Origin: Pirellula sp.
Lineage (GTDB): Bacteria > Planctomycetota > Planctomycetia > Pirellulales > PNKZ01
Length of the DNA stretch: 64,000 nucleotides
Direction: 5' to 3'
Assembly (NCBI GenBank): GCA_013822735.1
Contig: PNKZ01000001.1
Location: 558,001-622,000 of the forward strand
Shown here: in pieces, positions 3,039-15,446 of the stretch
Layout: every line of letters begins with the position of its first letter
Position numbering within the stretch: the stretch's first letter is position 1
Made by a program: the position numbers and the translations under genes
The notes under the pieces: generated by a model
Databases searched by the model: none
What the model was told of the DNA's origin: nothing
The model's input: the letters and a program-made list of their open reading frames with translations, nothing else

Positions 3039-4034
3039 CTACGATCCATCGCTTGTTCGGGAAGCGCCGGAACCGGCGAAGTGGGCGTTCGTCGAAGAGT
3101 GCTTATCGCCGGCGGATCGCAACTCGCGCGGTAGCGGAAAAAAGACTTCCTCGCGCCGAACCATGCGGGCTTCCACCGTCGCTCCGAAGAGCCGCTTGAG
3201 GAGCTCGATGCACTCTTCCACGACGAGTTCCGGCGCGCTCGCTCCGGCCGTAACAAGAACCGTTTCATCGCCGCGGAACCAAGCCGCATTAATGTCGGAA
3301 GCGCCGTCGATCAGATGAGCCTTCTTGCCGCTCTCTCGTGCGAGCTCGGCCAAGCGTTGGCTGTTGGAACTATTTTGGCTGCCGAGCACCAGCACGATTT
3401 CCGCTTCGCTCGAAAGCGTGCGCACTGCTTCTTGCCGGTTTTGCGTGGCGTAGCAGATGTCGTCTTTCGGCGGATTGTCGATGTGCGGAAAGCGGACCCG
3501 AAGTCGCGAGATGATTCGGTTGGCGTCGTCGACGCTGAGAGTCGTTTGCGTCAGATAGGCGACCTTCCGTTCGTCCGGCACTTGGAGCGCATCGACTGCT
3601 TCCGGCGTTTCGACCAGAAGCATCGACTCCGGCGCCTCCCCCATCGTGCCGATCACTTCATCGTGTCCTTCATGCCCGATGAGCAGGATCGTGTAGCCGA
3701 GCTTGGCGTAGCGGATCGCTTCGAGATGCACCTTCGTAACGAGCGGACAGGTGGCGTCGACGGTCTTGAGCTTGCGCGAAGCGGCCAGTTCGCGAATCTG
3801 CGGCGATACGCCATGTGCCGAATAGAGCAACAATGCGCCCTCGGGCACTTCCGTCAGATGGTCGACGAACACGGCGCCGCGATCGCGAAAAGTTTCGACG
3901 ACGTACTTATTGTGCACGATCTCGTGATAGACGTAGACCGGCGTGCCGAACATCTGCAGCGCCAGGTCCAGGCTCTCGATCGCCATGTTGACGCCGGCGC
4001 AAAACCCGCGCGGACTAGCCAGAAGAATCTTCAT
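3039..4034 (-). CDS. ispH: 4-hydroxy-3-methylbut-2-enyl diphosphate reductase IspH (LytB)
   Basis: IspH is the last enzyme of the MEP pathway; it converts HMBPP into IPP and DMAPP using a [4Fe-4S] cluster. The three cluster cysteines are visible in SPRGFCAGVNMAI, DATCPLVTKVH and DICYATQNRQ. Conserved substrate-site motifs HEIVHNKYVV and GHEGHDEVIGTMGEA are present. The usual start MKILLASPRGFCAG is at 4034; the frame is open 35 codons further upstream but those residues have no family counterpart. The length of 331 residues is normal. It diverges from hpnC-hpnD-hpnE, whose enzymes use isoprenoid precursors made downstream of IspH. Confidence 0.95.
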   Translation of the reverse strand: MKILLASPRGFCAGVNMAIESLDLALQMFGTPVYVYHEIVHNKYVVETFRDRGAVFVDHLTEVPEGALLLYSAHGVSPQIRELAASRKLKTVDATCPLVTKVHLEAIRYAKLGYTILLIGHEGHDEVIGTMGEAPESMLLVETPEAVDALQVPDERKVAYLTQTTLSVDDANRIISRLRVRFPHIDNPPKDDICYATQNRQEAVRTLSSEAEIVLVLGSQNSSNSQRLAELARESGKKAHLIDGASDINAAWFRGDETVLVTAGASAPELVVEECIELLKRLFGATVEARMVRREEVFFPLPRELRSAGDKHSSTNAHFAGSGASRTSDGS

Positions 4035-4178
4035 AACGGAAGCGTCGCCGAGGTTCGAAAGCGAGACGAAAGCCGCGGCTTGTTGCGTCGGTTGGAGACT
4101 CGCACCGCTTAGAGGTATCATATCTCCACGGCCGCACAACGACTAGGCGACGGCCGGCATCCCCCTACGACGAACAGC

Positions 4179-5114
4179 GTGAGCAGTAGCAGTTTCTCCA
4201 TCGACGCCGAGTTGCCGATTTACGGCCCTGCGGGGAGCGCTGCGCCCCCTTCGCTCAACGATGCGGAAGCGTATTGCCGGCATTTAGCGACGACGCACTA
4301 CGAGAATTTCGTCGTTGCCGGCGTGCTGGTGCCGCGACGTCTGCGGCGGCATTTTTATAACGTCTACGCCTACTGTCGCTGGTCGGACGACTTAGCTGAT
4401 GAAGCCGGAAGCGCCGAGCGCAGCTTGCAACTTCTTGAATGGTGGGGCACGGAACTCCGCGAATGCTACGCCGGCCGGTGTCGGCATCCGGTCTTTGTTG
4501 CGCTGCGCGGCACGATCGAGCAGTTCGGCATTCCGATCGAGCCGTTCGCCGATTTGCTGACGGCATTCCGACAGGATCAAACGCAGACGCGCTACGGGTC
4601 CTATGACGAGCTGCTCGGCTACTGCCGCAATTCGGCAAACCCCGTCGGGCGGCTGGTGTTATATATGGCTCGTTGCCGCGAGGAGCGGTTCTTGCCGTGG
4701 AGCGATGCGATCTGCACCGGCCTGCAGTTGGCGAACTCTTGGCAAGACGTGAGCCGCGACCTCTTGAAGGGGCGCGTTTATTTGCCGCACGAAGATCGTG
4801 AACGGTTCGGAGTAGACGAAGCCGCGCTCGACCAAACGTCGACGCCGCGGAACTTGCGCGATTTGATTGCCTTCGAAGTAGATCGCGCCGAGCAGTTGTT
4901 GCGATCCGGCTTGCCGCTGGTCGATGCCGTGCCCCGTGGGTTGCAGGGGAGCATTTGGATGTTTGCCCACGGCGGATTGAAAATTCTGGAGAAGATCCGA
5001 GCGATCGACTACGACGTACTCGCGATGCGACCGCGCGTCACGAAGGTCGACCAGTTGCGTTTGCTGGCGGGCTGCCTTTGGCGCAATGCGTGGCGCGGCG
5101 AGGCGCTGCGATGA
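4179..5114 (+). CDS. hpnC: Squalene pathway enzyme HpnC (hydroxysqualene synthase)
   Basis: HpnC converts presqualene diphosphate to hydroxysqualene in the three-enzyme HpnCDE route. The trans-isoprenyl diphosphate synthase fold shows in the two aspartate-rich motifs, RWSDDLADEAGS near residue 70 and NSWQDVSRDLLKGRVYLP near residue 185. The start is GTG at 4179 (SSSSFSIDAELPIYG), the first good start after the divergent ispH promoter region. The stop overlaps the hpnD start as ATGA, so the two genes are translationally coupled. Length 311 residues is slightly longer than many HpnC, mainly at the N-terminus. Confidence 0.9.
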   Translation: MSSSSFSIDAELPIYGPAGSAAPPSLNDAEAYCRHLATTHYENFVVAGVLVPRRLRRHFYNVYAYCRWSDDLADEAGSAERSLQLLEWWGTELRECYAGRCRHPVFVALRGTIEQFGIPIEPFADLLTAFRQDQTQTRYGSYDELLGYCRNSANPVGRLVLYMARCREERFLPWSDAICTGLQLANSWQDVSRDLLKGRVYLPHEDRERFGVDEAALDQTSTPRNLRDLIAFEVDRAEQLLRSGLPLVDAVPRGLQGSIWMFAHGGLKILEKIRAIDYDVLAMRPRVTKVDQLRLLAGCLWRNAWRGEALR

Positions 5115-6028
5115 GCATAGTCTCGCTAAAAGAAAGCTACCGCGTTTGCAGCACCACGGCACGCCGCTCCGCGGGGAACTTTTACTATTCCTTCTGGGCG
5201 CTCCCGGCGGCGAAGCGGCGTTCGATGTGTGCGCTTTACGCATTCTTCCGCCGTACCGACGATCTCGGCGACGACCCCGGCCCGGTCGACGAGCGCCGCA
5301 AGGCGCTGATGCGATGGCGCGGTTCGCTGAAAGACGCCGCCGAGGGTAAGTTCGACGATCCGGTCTTTCCGGCCTTGATGGATACGATTCGTCGCTATGA
5401 GATTCCGTTGGAATACTTTGAAACGGCGATCGACGGCGTGGAAACCGATCTCGCGCGGACGGAGTTTGAGACGCTCGCAGAGTTGGAACGCTATTGCTAT
5501 CAAGTTGCCTCGGTCGTCGGCTTGGCTTGTATTCATGTGTGGGGCTTCCATCGTGAGCCCTCCGCCTACGAAGCCGCACATCATTGCGGCGTGGCATTTC
5601 AACTGACGAACATCGTGCGCGACGTGAAGGAAGACGCCGAACGCGGCCGCGTGTACCTTCCACGCCGGCTACTATTGCAACACGGCATCTCCCCGAGTTC
5701 GCTTATCGACGGGCATTTCGACGCTATCGTTTGCGACGTCATTCGCCGCGTCGCGTACCACGCGGAAGAGCATTACGCGTCGGCGCGCCGGCTCACGCCT
5801 TATCTCAGCTCCGACGGTCGCCGAGCCTATGGCGCAATGCTCGCCATATATCACGGCCTGCTCAAGCGGATTCACGCGGCGAATTACGATGTGTTCACGA
5901 CCCGCATTCGCCTTCCGGCTTGGCGGAAAACGGCCATTGCTCTGCAACATATGTGGCCTCGGTTCGTGCCGCAATTCGGTTCGCGCGCGCCGCGGCGGAC
6001 GATTGATTCGCTGAGCGACCATTCATGA
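5111..6028 (+). CDS. hpnD: Presqualene diphosphate synthase HpnD
   Basis: HpnD condenses two farnesyl diphosphate molecules to presqualene diphosphate, the first step of the HpnCDE route. The 305-residue protein has both metal-binding motifs, [12 protein letters not shown] near residue 45 and TNIVRDVKEDAERGRVYLP near residue 170. The ATG at 5111 overlaps the hpnC stop (ATGA); an upstream extension of this frame to 4955 lies inside hpnC and is rejected. It is coupled to hpnE in the same way. Its order C-D-E is the common arrangement in hopanoid producers, but no shc is seen here. Confidence 0.92.
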   Translation: MSIVSLKESYRVCSTTARRSAGNFYYSFWALPAAKRRSMCALYAFFRRTDDLGDDPGPVDERRKALMRWRGSLKDAAEGKFDDPVFPALMDTIRRYEIPLEYFETAIDGVETDLARTEFETLAELERYCYQVASVVGLACIHVWGFHREPSAYEAAHHCGVAFQLTNIVRDVKEDAERGRVYLPRRLLLQHGISPSSLIDGHFDAIVCDVIRRVAYHAEEHYASARRLTPYLSSDGRRAYGAMLAIYHGLLKRIHAANYDVFTTRIRLPAWRKTAIALQHMWPRFVPQFGSRAPRRTIDSLSDHS

Positions 6029-7431
6029 CCGAGCCGCGCGGACGAACGATCATCGTCGGCGGCGGACTCGCCGGCCTAGCCGCGGCCGTGGCGCTGGTCG
6101 AGGCCGGTGAACCGGTGGAACTGTTCGAGGCCCGGCGCCGTCTGGGGGGCCGCGCCTCGTCTTGGCTCGATCCTTCGTCGGGCGAGATGATCGACTTCTG
6201 CCAACACGTCGGTATGGCCTGCTGTACGAACTTCGCCGACTTCTGTCGCCGCACCGGCTTGAGCGGCTCGTTCCGTCGCGCAAGCGTGCTCCATTTCTTC
6301 GGGCCTGATGGTCGACGCTACGACCTTCGCGCAACGCCCGGCCTTCCCGCGCCGCTGCACTTGCTGCCGTCGCTCCTGCGGCTGGGCTATCTTTCCCTGA
6401 CTGAACGGCTTAGTGCAATCGTCGCCGTCGGGAAGTTGGCCCGGATGCACTCCGGGCTCGATGCGATGAGCGTCGGCCAATGGCTGCGCGAGCAGCGGCA
6501 GAGCCCGGCCGCCCTCGAGCGGTTCTGGGCGCCGGTGTTGCTAAGTGCCTTGGGGGAAACGCTCGACAAGGCGTCGCTCAAGTATGCCCGCAAGGTCTTC
6601 GTCGACGGCTTCTTGGCAAACCGCGAGGCTTTCCAGGTCGACGTGCCGCAAGCTCCGCTCAGCGAACTGTTCGGCGAGCTCGTGCCGGCGTGGCTGCGCG
6701 AGCGGGGGGCCATGGTGCAAACCGGCCTCGCGGTGCGGTCGATCCGTCGCACGGGCGCAGGCTCCTACGAGCTCAATCTCGGCGACGGCGTCACGCGTGA
6801 GGCCGAGCGGGTCATCGTCGCGCTGCCGTGGCGCAAAGCGGCCGAGGTCCTTGCGCCGGTCGCCGATGCCTGGCCGGCCGTACGGCAATGGCGGACGATC
6901 GACGGTTCTCCCATCTCCGGCGTCCACCTCTGGTTCGACCGGCCGCTTACCGATTTGCCGCACGCCGTGCTGGTCGGCACCCTCGCGCAATGGCTCTTCC
7001 GACCGGAGCTCGGCACGCCCCAGACCACCGGCGGCGAGCACTACTATCAGGTCGTCATCAGCGCGTCTTACGACCTCGAAGCGATGGACAAGCCGACGGC
7101 CGTCGCACAGATCGTCGGCGAACTCCAGCGAGCCTTTCCACAAGCCGGCGACCTGCATCTCCTCCGGCATCGCATCGTCACCGAGCGTGAGGCGGTCTTC
7201 TCCGTTCGCCCGGGCCTCGACGTCGTGCGGCCGTCGCAGAGGTCGCCGCTGCCGGGCTTGGCGATCGCCGGCGATTGGACCGCCACGGGCTGGCCCGGCA
7301 CCCTGGAAAGTGCCGTACGGAGCGGCTATCTCGCGGCCCAAGCCCTCCGGCGCGTCGAGGATCCTGATATGCGTCAGCTCGTGTCCGATCTCCCCACGGC
7401 TCGGCTCGCGCGGCTCCTGTTCGGGTTGTGA
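6025..7431 (+). CDS. hpnE: Hydroxysqualene dehydroxylase HpnE
   Basis: HpnE is the FAD-dependent amine-oxidase-fold enzyme that reduces hydroxysqualene to squalene. The N-terminal dinucleotide-binding motif IIVGGGLAGLAAAVALVEAGEPVELFEA and the following RRRLGGRASSW are textbook for the family. The closing FAD motif is GLAIAGDWTATGWPGTLESAVRSG near residue 415. At 468 residues the length is typical. The ATG overlaps the hpnD stop (ATGA), making the third coupled gene of the operon. In planctomycetes squalene may serve as such or as a sterol/hopanoid precursor; no cyclase is in the window. Confidence 0.92.
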   Translation: MTEPRGRTIIVGGGLAGLAAAVALVEAGEPVELFEARRRLGGRASSWLDPSSGEMIDFCQHVGMACCTNFADFCRRTGLSGSFRRASVLHFFGPDGRRYDLRATPGLPAPLHLLPSLLRLGYLSLTERLSAIVAVGKLARMHSGLDAMSVGQWLREQRQSPAALERFWAPVLLSALGETLDKASLKYARKVFVDGFLANREAFQVDVPQAPLSELFGELVPAWLRERGAMVQTGLAVRSIRRTGAGSYELNLGDGVTREAERVIVALPWRKAAEVLAPVADAWPAVRQWRTIDGSPISGVHLWFDRPLTDLPHAVLVGTLAQWLFRPELGTPQTTGGEHYYQVVISASYDLEAMDKPTAVAQIVGELQRAFPQAGDLHLLRHRIVTEREAVFSVRPGLDVVRPSQRSPLPGLAIAGDWTATGWPGTLESAVRSGYLAAQALRRVEDPDMRQLVSDLPTARLARLLFGL

Positions 7432-10223: not shown

Positions 10224-10359
10224 CCCGGCAACTCGTGACCCGTCAACGAACGGGCCCCGACGCCAAGCTAAGGGGAGCGCCCTGCAGAGAAGCACGACGG
10301 CATGACGGTTTTGGTTTACTGACCGAACGTTGGCCCGCTACTCGGAAAGGATCGCTCTT

Positions 10360-12465
10360 ATGTCGCACCCCAGCGTTGAGACCATCCGCAGCATTGCGGT
10401 TTGCGGCCATGGCGCCGCCGGAAAAAGCACTCTCATCGAGCAGATGCTGCTCAAGACGGGCGCGGTGAAGCCCGTCGTCGGTGACCAAGGAACCGACATC
10501 GTCGACTACGACGAACTCGAAAAGGCTCATCATCACTCGATCGAGAGCCACGTCACCCACTTCGAACACGCCGGCAAGTATTTTCAGATTATCGATACGC
10601 CCGGCTATCCCGACTTTATCGGGCAGACGATCGGAGCTTTGCACGGCGTCGACACGGCGGTGATCGTCGTCAACGCCCACTCCGGCCTGGAAGTAAACAC
10701 GCGCCGCACCTTTTCGGAAGCCGGTAAGCGCGGGCTCGGGCGGTTGATCGTCGTCAACAAGCTGGACTCGGAGAACATCGATTTCCCGGGGCTGCTCGCC
10801 TCGATTCAAGAAACGTTTGGCGCGGAATGTCTGCTCTTGAACGTGCCGGTCGGTTCCGGGCATGAATTCAAGAGCGTCGTGAACTTGCTCAAAAGTGCCG
10901 ACGGCGCGAAGGGCGCGCTCGTGAATCCGGCCGAGCATTCCGTGAAGCTGATCGAATCGATCATCGAACTCGACGACGAAGTGACCGGTCGTTACTTCGA
11001 AGGGCAGCAACCGACCGAAGCAGAAATCTCCCGGCTCATCATCGAAGCCGTGGCCACCGGGCACGTGATCCCCGTGCTTTGCACCTCGGCCAAGACGGGG
11101 GTCGGCGTCGTCGAACTGATGGAAGCTTTGGCGCTCGCTGCGCTGCCGCCGAACCGGTTGCCGCACTTAGCGACCAAGGAAGACGGCACGATGGTGGAAG
11201 TGAAGCCCGACCCGACGGGGCCCTTCGTCGCGCAAGTGTTCAAGACGCGCATCGATCCGTACGTACAGAAGCTCAGCTTCCTGCGCATCTACTCCGGCAC
11301 CGTCAAGAAAGACGACGTGGTCCACGTCTCCGGCCAGCGCAAGGGAATCAAACTTCACCAATTGCTGCGCGTGCAAGCGGGACAAACCGAAGCGATCGAG
11401 AGCGCCGGGCCGGGAGAAATCATCGCCGTCGCGAAGACCGACGAACTGCACACCGGGTCGACATTAGGCGACCTGACGATGGAGCCGATTCATTTCCCCA
11501 CGCCGATGGTCGGGCTGGCCGTGATGCCGAAGAGCCGGAACGATGAAACCAAGCTCAGCGGTGCGCTGCACAAACTGGCGGAAGAAGAGCCGACATTGCG
11601 CCTCGATCGCGATCCGCAAACGCACGAGCTCGTGATGAACGGCATGAGCGAACTGCATTTGCAGCTCATTCAAGAGAAGATCAAGAAGCGCGACAAGGTC
11701 GACCTCGAAACGCACGAGCCCAAAATTCCGTATCGCGAAACAGTGCTCGGCGAAGCGGAAGGAAGTTATCGGCACAAGAAACAATCGGGCGGCCGCGGCC
11801 AGTTTGGCGAGGTGCATATCCGCGTTTATCCGCTGCCCGAAGGAACGAAGCCGGAGTTGTTTTGCACGAAGGACCGATTCCCCTCGATGCGCGAATACAA
11901 ATACGACCCGGAGTTGAATTTCCTTTGGATCGATTCGATCGTCGGCGGCACGATTCCGAACAACTTCCTGCCGGCGGTGGAAAAAGGGTTCCGCGAGCGG
12001 ATCGAGAAGGGAGTGATCGCCGGCTACCGTTTGAAAAACGTGGCCGTCGAAATCTTCTTCGGCAAGCATCACCCGGTCGATAGCTCGGAAGCGGCGTTCA
12101 AGATCGCCGGAGCGATGGCCCTGCGCAACGTCGTGCGCGAAGCGAGGCCGGCCCTCTTGGAACCGGTCGTGAAAATGAACATCACCGTGCCGAGCGCAAA
12201 GCTCGGCGATATCTCGAGCGACATGTCGGGCCGGCGCGGCCGCGTGTCAGGGATGGAAAGCGCCGGCGGCGACCTGCAGACCGTGATCGCGGAAGTACCG
12301 CTCTCGGAAGTGACGACGTATGCCCGGAGCTTGTCGAGCATCACGGGCGGGCAGGGGAGCTTCACGATGGAATTCAGCCACTACGACGCCGTACCCGGCA
12401 ACGTACAGAAGCAGATTATCGATAAGGCCGGCGTGACTCACGATGAGGAAGAGGTGGAAGTGTAG
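10360..12465 (+). CDS. EF-G2-like translational GTPase
   Basis: A 701-residue paralogue of elongation factor G with all five EF-G domains. The G1 loop is CGHGAAGKST rather than the AHIDAGKTT of canonical EF-G; G3 is DTPGYPDF and G4 is NKLD. Canonical switch residues differ, as in the EF-G2/FusA2-type subfamily with GHSGSGKT-like loops. Function of this subfamily is not settled; roles in ribosome stress or alternative translocation are proposed, so no gene name is given. ATG at 10360 is preferred (AAAGGA about 10 bases upstream) over the GTG/TTG-type extension to 10330. No rpsL, rpsG or tuf neighbours are present, in contrast with the main fusA operon. Confidence 0.88.
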   Translation: MSHPSVETIRSIAVCGHGAAGKSTLIEQMLLKTGAVKPVVGDQGTDIVDYDELEKAHHHSIESHVTHFEHAGKYFQIIDTPGYPDFIGQTIGALHGVDTAVIVVNAHSGLEVNTRRTFSEAGKRGLGRLIVVNKLDSENIDFPGLLASIQETFGAECLLLNVPVGSGHEFKSVVNLLKSADGAKGALVNPAEHSVKLIESIIELDDEVTGRYFEGQQPTEAEISRLIIEAVATGHVIPVLCTSAKTGVGVVELMEALALAALPPNRLPHLATKEDGTMVEVKPDPTGPFVAQVFKTRIDPYVQKLSFLRIYSGTVKKDDVVHVSGQRKGIKLHQLLRVQAGQTEAIESAGPGEIIAVAKTDELHTGSTLGDLTMEPIHFPTPMVGLAVMPKSRNDETKLSGALHKLAEEEPTLRLDRDPQTHELVMNGMSELHLQLIQEKIKKRDKVDLETHEPKIPYRETVLGEAEGSYRHKKQSGGRGQFGEVHIRVYPLPEGTKPELFCTKDRFPSMREYKYDPELNFLWIDSIVGGTIPNNFLPAVEKGFRERIEKGVIAGYRLKNVAVEIFFGKHHPVDSSEAAFKIAGAMALRNVVREARPALLEPVVKMNITVPSAKLGDISSDMSGRRGRVSGMESAGGDLQTVIAEVPLSEVTTYARSLSSITGGQGSFTMEFSHYDAVPGNVQKQIIDKAGVTHDEEEVEV

Positions 12466-12487
12466 GATCAGGCGCGGGCCGAGCACC

Positions 12488-13120
12488 AAAACTCCTCTCC
12501 CCCTGGGAGAGGATGCCCGCAGGGCAGGTGAGGGTGGCGCGGCAAGACGCTTGGTATGGGAGATGAGAAAGCGCAGCAGCGTTATCCACCTCGAACGAAT
12601 ACGCGCAGCCAAGCGTGTGCAGCGCGACCCTAATCCGGCCTTCGGCCACCTTCTCCCAGTGGGAGAAGGGTTGAGAGTCAAGACGGCGCGGGCGGCGCAT
12701 CAAAACTCCTCTCCCACTGGGAGAGGATGCCCGCAGGGCAGGTGAGGGTGGCGCGGCGTGAAGCTGGATATCGCGTGTGCGCGGACGTGAGATTCGTAAA
12801 AGCGCACTCCGGTTTGAGTTCGCATCACCAAGCGTGTGCGGCGCGACCCTCATCCGGCCTTCGGCCACCTTCTCCCAGTGGGAGAAGGGTTGGGGTTCAA
12901 CGCGGCGCGGGCGGCGCATCAAAACTCCTCTCCCACTGGGAGAGGATGCCCGCAGGGCAGGTGAGGGCCGCGCGGCAAGACGTTTGGCATCGCGTGCGCG
13001 CGGACGTCAGATTCGTAAAAGCGCACTCCGGTTTGAGTTCGCATCACCAAGCGTGTGCGGCGCGACCCTCATCCGGCCTTCGGCCACCTTCTCCCAGTGG
13101 GAGAAGGATTGGGGGCTAGC
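12488..13120. repeat. Three tandem ~216-bp units, each with inverted arms
   Basis: Units start at 12488, 12702 and 12921 (spacings 214 and 219). Each opens with CTCCTCTCCCACTGGGAGAG, continues GATGCCCGCAGGGCAGGTGAGGGTGG, and closes with GACCCTCATCCGGCC, TTCGGCCACCTTC and TCCCAGTGGGAGAAGG, which is close to the reverse complement of the opening. Units 2 and 3 are almost identical, including the spacer; unit 1 has a different middle. The array looks like a BIME-type cluster of REP sequences. It is non-coding; open frames through it are artefacts of the repeat. Confidence 0.88.
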
Positions 13121-13387
13121 GCACTCCGGGTCGGCCTCTCGTCCTATTTGTAGAACCCCGACGCGGTTCCACAGATCGTTACGTGGGTGATTCCGTAACG
13201 CAGGGTGCGCTGCGCGACCCCGGGCTTTGTTGTGAAACGCCTTCGGCGTTTTCTGCGGAGAGACGTTTTGGATTTATGAAAAAGTAGAATGTCCCCTTTT
13301 CTGTTTTGTCCCCTTTTCTGTTTCCCCTTTTCTGTATTTCCCTTTTCTGTTTCTGACAAGTGCAGCGGCTAAGTCGGCGTTTGGGCA
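13121..13387. repeat. Further intergenic repeat sequence, including four CCCCTTTTCTGT-type direct repeats
   Basis: At about 13288-13353 the words CCCCTTTTCTG, CCCCTTTTCTG, CCCCTTTTCTG and TCCCTTTTCTG follow each other; on the minus strand this reads AGAAAAGGGGACA next to TTCTACTTTTTC. From memory, sequences of this kind accompany REP-associated Y1 transposases in planctomycetes. The preceding part (13190-13260) contains GAAACGCCTTCGGCGTTTTC, a perfect-looking short hairpin. No transposase gene is present here. Confidence 0.55.
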
Positions 13388-13744
13388 CTATAATTCCACC
13401 CCGGCCGCCTCGAACGCCTGCGACATAGCCATATCGGCCGCCTCTGCGAACCGATGTGACTTTGCGTCAACGAGATGGATTGTGATCGCGGTGAGTGTGA
13501 CCTGAAGGTATCCCACATCCCGACGCTCGGCCGCTCGCCGCGATACGAAGGATCGGACTCCCTTCTCGACATACGGGGCGAAACACGCCGCATCTGAATT
13601 CGCGACCGCCGAGGAGAAACTCACTCCGGGGTTGTCTAGGTCGGGGGCAAGCCGGAGCGTGAGATTGGCCACGTAACTGCCGCCCGACATATTGAGGTTC
13701 TGATGTCGTATGGGCTGCTCGAACTCGCGGTCAACCGTCCACAC
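13388..13744 (-). CDS. Small protein resembling EF-G domain IV alone
   Basis: A 118-residue protein with no GTPase domain. The run GGSYVANLTLRLAPD, then GVSFSSAVANSDAACFAPYVEKGVRSFVSRR, then LQVTLTAITIHLVD and a helix-like AADMAMSQAFEAAG follows the spacing of EF-G domain IV (compare FGEVHIRVYPL, LPAVEKGFRERIEKG, NVAVEIFFG, and SEAAFKIAGAMAL of the nearby EF-G2-like protein). GTG at 13744 is supported by GGAGG seven bases upstream and an in-frame stop just before. It is convergent with the EF-G2-like gene across the repeat array. The homology is my reading by eye. Confidence 0.5.
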   Translation of the reverse strand: MWTVDREFEQPIRHQNLNMSGGSYVANLTLRLAPDLDNPGVSFSSAVANSDAACFAPYVEKGVRSFVSRRAAERRDVGYLQVTLTAITIHLVDAKSHRFAEAADMAMSQAFEAAGVEL

Positions 13745-14495
13745 CTCGAAGCCTCCGTCGCCGAACTATGTTATTAGATAGTTTCTATCTTTCACCTGTA
13801 GAGGGCAAGTTTGCGTCCTATCACGCAGACGCTGTTTTGCCGTAAGTCTGATCCTAGCTGACGCTTGCTGAAGTTTCACGAGTCGCGATGCGTGATAGAT
13901 CGTTTCTTGATAACGCGCAAATCTGACGCGCACGTTGTCTGTGGGAGCGGAGATCGCGAGACAGAATGCGGGAGCGATTCTTCGCCGAGTTGCTTAGCCG
14001 CCGCGGCCACGCGGCGAATGGACGTCGCAAGTAGAGTTCCCGGACGTGGACGACCGGGCTAAGCGAAGTGGTAATATTGGTCCTTAGTTCCGGTCAAAAT
14101 GTCCGGCGGCGGCGTTAAGTTCGGCGGTCTGCGTGGTCGAAGAAGATAACGTGTCGCTTGATTTTGCCGTCGGCAACGCCTAGCATGCCGGTACAGACTA
14201 CGCAGCTTGCGCGGTTTGATGGTGTGTGGAAAAGCGGCGGTCGCTTGCGGTGTAAGAAGTTCCCGTACGGTCGGTATGACCCTGCGGGAGCCGACGCCGC
14301 GAGCGCAAGTTCATGGTTCAAACGGTAGGTAAGGGCGCCTCGCGTGGCCGTTCGGCTCAGAGTGTGTTGTTGCACGTGTCGCTGTCCGGCGTAGGCGTCG
14401 GATGTTGCTTGCATTGCGCCGCCCCGTTTTGAATTTTCTTCCGAAGTCCTGATTGATGCGCGCTCTTTACCGCTTGCGCGCAGGAGCAGACTACC
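13745..14495. other. Intergenic stretch without a supportable gene
   Basis: A 750-base gap between the small EF-G-like gene and cysE. Short open frames (for example 13865-14062) have no ribosome site and no protein-like composition. A small palindrome AGATAGTTTCTATCT lies at 13776-13790, in the likely promoter zone of the minus-strand gene. Nothing else recognisable. Confidence 0.5.
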
Positions 14496-15446
14496 GTGGC
14501 TTCCGATCTTCGCCGTAAAGAACAACTGCCCGAGCTCACGAAGAAAATTGTCGAGACCTACCGCGAGGTCGGCTCGATCAATCATTTGGGGCATTGCCCG
14601 CTGCCGAACTACGACGTGGTCGTGACCATCTTGGAGGATCTCAAGGAGATTCTCTTCCCGGGCTTTCGCCGGCGCGAAGGTTTGCACTTCGGCAACGTGC
14701 TCTACCACGTGGGCGACCTCATCGACGGCCTGCACGATAAGCTCACGACGCAGATCGCCCGGGCGCAGCGGCATGAGGCCGGCCGCGTATGCCTGGATGA
14801 AGGGGACACCGATTTCGAAGCGCTGGGGCAAGCCAAGGCGATTGAGTTTCTGGAACGCATTCCCGAGCTGCGCCAGATGCTCTCGCTTGACGTGCAGGCC
14901 GCCTACGACGGCGATCCTTCGGTGCGCGGACTCGATGAAATCATTTTTTGCTATCCGGGCTTGGAAGCGGTGACCGTGTATCGCATTGCCCACGTGCTCT
15001 ATGAGCTCGAAGTGCCGCTCATCCCGCGGATGATGACGGAGTGGGCCCACAGCAAGACCGGCATCGACATTCACCCGGGGGCGACGATCGGCACGCATTT
15101 CTTTATCGATCACGGGACGGGCGTGGTGATCGGGCAGACGTGCGAGATCGGCCATCATGTGAAGCTCTACCAGGGCGTGACGCTCGGGGCGTTGAGCTTT
15201 GCGACCGACGGCGACGGCAACTTGGTGCGCGGCACGAAGCGGCACCCGACGATCGAAGATCGCGTGGTGATCTACGCCAACGCGACGGTGCTCGGCGGCA
15301 TGACCGTGGTGGGGCACGATTCCGTGATCGGCTCCAGCGTGTGGCTCACGCGCAGCGTAGAGCCGCGCTCGACCGTGGTGCTGGAAAAGCCGAAGCTGCG
15401 GATTCGGGCCGAGCAGGAAGAGCCGGAATCGAATTATACGATTTAG
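14496..15446 (+). CDS. cysE: Serine O-acetyltransferase CysE (EpsC type)
   Basis: CysE acetylates L-serine with acetyl-CoA to make O-acetylserine, the cysteine precursor. The C-terminal left-handed beta-helix hexapeptide repeats are clear: [44 protein letters not shown], with the two catalytic-site histidines, then [21 protein letters not shown]. The 316-residue length with a long N-terminal helical region is like the EpsC/planctomycete form. GTG at 14496 follows CAGGAG by about nine bases. The gene is monocistronic and its stop abuts copy 2 of the 86-bp hairpin. Confidence 0.93.

Follow-up and report, generated by a model that had tools for sequence, protein, structure and literature searches.

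A free-standing EF-G domain IV gene behind an attC-like repeat in Pirellula sp., a candidate immunity or antitoxin gene

Domain IV of EF-G, a universal translation factor, is the part that reaches into the decoding centre. Why, then, should a genome of Pirellula sp. carry this domain as a gene of its own, a short distance from a gene for an EF-G2-like GTPase? A search of open-licence papers turned up no account of EF-G domain IV as a stand-alone protein, and the question arose from an earlier note on the letters of this DNA, which had proposed the domain and implied a link between the two genes. We analysed the stretch of 64,000 nucleotides (contig PNKZ01000001.1, positions 558,001 to 622,000; hereafter the window) together with related genomes. 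The features concerned, in window coordinates, are as follows; G001 and G003 are congeners of the window's genome (G000), and L112 and L114 are loci with further copies of the attC-like repeat.

10330 to 12465, plus strand: EF-G2-like translational GTPase of the NCBIfam PRK12740.1-5 subfamily, convergent with the open reading frame (ORF) and outside the inserted unit
12466 to 14092: lineage-specific 1.6-kb insertion containing the repeat array, the ORF and the attC-like repeat (71 bp here in G001)
12609 to 13115: 219-bp tandem repeat array, 2.3 copies with 93% matches, related sequence beginning near 12480
13262 to 13353: on the 3' side of the ORF, a AGAATGTCCCCTTTTC-type repeat and a tandem repeat rich in T, with similar stretches near other attC-like copies (L112, L114)
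13388 to 13744, minus strand: stand-alone EF-G domain IV protein, 118 aa, GTG start at 13744 and TAG stop at 13388
13751 to 13918, minus strand: 165-bp attC-like repeat, directly 5' of the ORF
13752 to 13756, minus strand: GGAGG, ribosome-binding site predicted from the sequence, 7 nt 5' of the GTG
13818 to 13827, minus strand: 3' arm of the repeat's stem, 10 bp, box GATAGGA here and canonical GTTAGGC in the G001 and G003 copies
13889 to 13898, minus strand: 5' arm of the stem, 10 bp, box ATCTATC here and canonical ATCTAAC in the G001 and G003 copies
14496 to 15446, plus strand: cysE-like gene for a serine O-acetyltransferase, on the far side of the insertion site

The 118-residue ORF with its own GTG and GGAGG was correctly placed by the earlier note and lies on the minus strand; on the plus strand, stops close the frame read across 13388-13744. 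Its codon score is higher than that of 97% of the off-frames of window genes and lower than that of 86% of true gene segments, that is, in the low range for real genes, and it does not separate from antisense frames. Such codon usage agrees with there being a gene and does not settle the matter.

In a Pfam search the protein had a sole match, EFG_IV (PF03764, E 2.3e-4), at 21.4 bits and so under the gathering cut-off of 24 bits, and the EF-G models of NCBIfam matched it in their domain IV part only. Its significant matches in 392 genomes from the phylum were the domain IVs of full-length EF-Gs (the best down to E 1e-7), mostly with nearly the whole ORF aligned. Alignment of 18 EF-G domain IVs with the ORF by hhalign gave E 3.2e-15 over 116 columns, end to end, as against 0.015 for the best of 100 shuffles and 0.43 for the reversed sequence, so that the similarity is well beyond chance. 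An AlphaFold2 model (pLDDT 80) fits EF-G domain IV (EF-G residues about 483-600) over residues 1-118, with a Z of 15.5 and an rmsd of 2.6 for 116 residues. This fold match is not independent of homology, because EF-G rows were present in the input alignment. The free-standing domain IV that had been claimed is upheld by the profile-profile alignment and by the predicted fold, the Pfam HMM being sub-threshold.

No remnant of domain III or V was present in the flanks of the ORF when all frames were compared with whole EF-Gs, and the protein itself has neither a GTPase domain nor domains II, III and V. An EF-G remnant with lost flanks was rejected on this absence of domain III and V signal, and BLAST extensions beyond the stop fail on their own. 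The window protein is confirmed as EF-G domain IV alone, from start to end. It resembles PF03764 over the whole domain and fold, including the H-x-V-D of the tip loop, and differs in being encoded alone and in a Pfam score just short of the cut-off. Domain IV is also common to the EF-G paralogues (EF-G2, spdEFG and the tetracycline ribosomal protection proteins); these are multi-domain GTPases, whereas the window protein has no G domain or any other domain.

The neighbouring genes show how the ORF came to lie where it does. The distance from the EF-G2 stop to the homologue of window position 14093 onwards, which leads up to cysE, is 71 bp in G001 and 1627 bp here, and G003 is similar. Because both congeners have an empty syntenic site, we conclude that the ORF arrived with the insertion, and that the segment was recently inserted. 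A copy of the ORF was found in none of three congeners nor in the other sampled relatives within the family and order, and no close relative occurs among GTDB contigs, viral contigs, phages or plasmids; at relaxed E-values, the plasmid matches are full EF-Gs where annotated, mostly from rhizobia. A duplicate of the adjacent EF-G2 was ruled out, since the two have no BLAST match. The proposal that only the repeat array separates the two genes holds spatially, with the end of the EF-G2-like gene at 12465 and the repeats at about 12480-13115, but the genes are convergent. A functional pair is unsupported: G001 and G003 keep EF-G2 without the ORF, so the pair is not conserved, and its adjacency here is accidental. 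The array at 12480-13115 consists of inverted CTCTCCCACTGGGAGAGG / CCTTCTCCCAGTGGGAGAAGG units, with related copies elsewhere in the genus.

The 165-bp repeat occurs five times in the window's genome and once each in G001 and G003, every copy just upstream of a different, unrelated small gene. Its 10-bp stem covaries, with 95.7% of cells paired, a value reached in 0 of 500 shuffles. Integron attC sites carry RYYYAAC/GTTRRRY boxes. In the G001 and G003 copies, ATCTAAC and GTTAGGC enclose the stem (85 bp overall), and canonical boxes are thus present in 2 of the 7 copies. The ORF is accompanied by such a site, with R boxes and a stem that covaries, on the 5' side only; a strict scan of 12466-14495, of a kind that also passes over degenerate sites, gave no attC 3' of the ORF. 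Integron integrase was sought with TIGR02249, which has no match above cut-off in G000 and is present in the congener G003 and in G517, a genome of the same order. The integrase of the congener (L098, G003:C4, 90-1100) has no adjoining cassette array.

The window's genome also contains an integron-like array headed by the 165-bp attC-like repeat (L112, G000:C2:213000-225000, about 3470-7300). It includes an Imm63 immunity gene (E 2.8e-25), and a DKNYY-family gene lies behind its second repeat copy. Palindromic, REP-like GGGGACATTCT...AGAATGTCCCC repeats recur beside attC-like copies, at 13262-13353 in the window and at about 5310-5370 and 6720-6810 in L112. Like the gene of an integron cassette, the window ORF is a small gene directly behind an attC-like repeat. 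It differs in being single and in having degenerate boxes. Because G000 has no intI above cut-off and the ORF's own 3' attC was not found, we call the ORF cassette-like and not a proven cassette.

Other stand-alone domain IV proteins do exist in the order, though none is close to the ORF. Short genes of one such family are present in G012 and G517, and the G012 member is hit by EFG_IV of Pfam at E 2.7e-4; G039 has a stand-alone copy of another kind, above the Pfam cut-off at 27.1 bits. A profile of the stand-alone proteins, which matches G517, G012, G039 and the window protein by construction, added six genomes (G695, G733, G580, G572, G739 and G650) with frames of 132-155 aa, all at E 1.5e-16 or better, the next matches being full EF-Gs at 2e-6. 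Nine proteins of the family from eight genomes of the order, with the window protein and G039 left out, were then taken as a set (A7). This set matches EF-G domain IV at E 9e-9 (shuffles reached 0.02 at best) and the window protein at E 1.2e-5, and five of the nine proteins match Pfam EFG_IV. The window protein is only remotely related to this cassette family. When the whole phylum was searched with A7, no other stand-alone member came up, and the best match was the domain IV of a full EF-G. A G517 model built without EF-G rows except the stand-alone ones gave a low-confidence structure (pLDDT 67), which resembled S5-domain-2-like folds generally and not EF-G specifically.

The stand-alone family resides largely in integron-like arrays. 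G517, which has a true integron integrase, holds three copies in arrays with a repeat every 0.4-1.7 kb; an attC-type stem is common to 12 of the repeats, with 99% of cells paired and double changes in 43 cells (0 of 500 shuffles), and one of them overlaps the 3' end of a domain IV gene. The G517 genes, flanked on both sides by attC-type sites, are cassettes, and those in other arrays probably are as well. The copies in G580 and G650 lie within rows of small same-strand genes, and that in G733 lies among a tyrosine recombinase and IS91-type transposases. A SUKH-type gene and a macro-domain gene are also present in the G517 array. This large chromosomal array (L057, L058) includes two identical stand-alone domain IV copies, and common C-terminal tails (ARESPS) in it are seemingly attC-encoded.

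The G039 copy has a different setting and starts inside the last codons of a toxin-type RHS-repeat protein of 1320 aa. The position directly behind a toxin gene is the usual one for an immunity gene. The G039 toxin domain was found also in G487 and G531. Its neighbour in G487 appears by eye unrelated to domain IV, and that in G531, a 207-aa protein behind an RHS-type toxin end (L130, 932-1884), has a C-terminus that is domain IV-like by eye and reaches only E 0.09 in hhalign; neither was counted. The stand-alone proteins resemble the immunity proteins of polymorphic (RHS-type) toxins in size, mobility and variability, and the G039 copy does so in position, whereas the window ORF has no toxin gene adjoining it at its locus. 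The available part of a 2012 survey of polymorphic toxin systems makes no mention of EF-G or elongation factors (PMC3482391).

We hypothesize, with a probability of roughly 0.45, that the window ORF is a horizontally acquired cassette-type gene that puts EF-G domain IV to another use, most likely in immunity or as an antitoxin. In this lineage the gene would have entered the region between EF-G2 and cysE together with its attC-like repeat. Its product would be out of service in translocation; most likely it would bind an incoming toxin, in the manner of an orphan immunity or antitoxin protein. This role is favoured because of the mobility and orphan state of the gene, the immunity genes in similar arrays and the G039 locus. 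Against it, only the G039 gene among the stand-alone genes adjoins a toxin-type gene, and its product is without the tip histidine; cassette arrays also host many functions. The search for a 3' attC and for intI, negative as described, and the distance of the cassette family from the window protein weigh on the same side. The protein may act by target mimicry, in which a toxin that recognises either the EF-G tip or the decoding site would be drawn to the kept tip as a decoy; such mimicry would explain why the tip was kept.

That tip is only partly that of EF-G. In the window protein the tip motif reads IHLVDAK, and its His90 aligns with the tip histidine of EF-G; what is retained is the core of the domain and the tip motif H-x-[VI]-[DN]. 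Of the positions that EF-Gs conserve as GGRGQ and GG-IP, most are gone. The protein keeps 17 of 29 EF-G-conserved positions, where most EF-Gs keep at least 22 and two divergent EF-Gs keep 16-17 of 24-26. The window protein shares this histidine with all nine A7 proteins; the G039 copy has Asp instead. The tRNA-like mimicry that the earlier note suggested would rely on a tip that keeps the histidine but has lost most of those other positions. Translocation stalls when E. coli EF-G carries the H583K mutation (PMC4490557). On our reading of the alignment, H583 would be the kept tip histidine. A free, cassette-borne EF-G tip may circulate as an EF-G mimic, either as a decoy for toxins directed at the EF-G tip or decoding centre or as a competitor for the ribosomal A site, and the invariant histidine of the cassette family is consistent with both; we regard this broader proposal as possible and rather doubtful.

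The main rival to an immunity or antitoxin role is that the free domain IV acts on the ribosome itself, entering the 30S A site or competing with EF-G, and thereby tunes or blocks translocation or clears a bound ligand. The EF-G tip-domain fold, the kept histidine and the stalling caused by H583K argue for such a protein, but the loss of most other conserved tip positions, the lack of a GTPase and of domain V contacts in a single domain, and the failure of the ORF to be conserved even within the genus make it unlikely. Next comes a functionless relic: an EF-G or ribosomal-protection gene would have been acquired, and a piece of it would have decayed or survived by chance. Such a piece would fit an ORF that is restricted to a single genome, scores low in codon usage and is flanked on both sides by repeats, with degenerate attC boxes in this copy. 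We judge it somewhat less probable still, as the frame is open, with its start, ribosome-binding site and stop at the domain boundaries, the flanks hold no traces of domains III and V, and stand-alone domain IV proteins occur independently elsewhere.

Another accessory role for the cassette, for instance in anti-phage defence or in interfering with an EF-G-binding drug-resistance factor, would suit the mobile setting, and the FusB-EF-G complex structures in the PDB imply that factors binding this part of EF-G exist; the protein matches no PADLOC family, however, and its PHROG matches are unconvincing, and we consider such a role improbable. That the protein partners or regulates the neighbouring EF-G2-like GTPase, as adjacency and the common domain family might suggest, is highly improbable given the convergent orientation, the congeners that retain EF-G2 beside an empty site and the lack of BLAST similarity.

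The incidental adjacency to EF-G2 at this locus is a caution against inferring function from a neighbouring gene. If a family of free, integron-borne copies is real, domain IV of EF-G would have been cut loose from its factor and recruited elsewhere, plausibly in bacterial conflict. The family would then allow immunity by target mimicry to be put to the test, or would provide a natural probe of the ribosomal A site that consists of a single domain.
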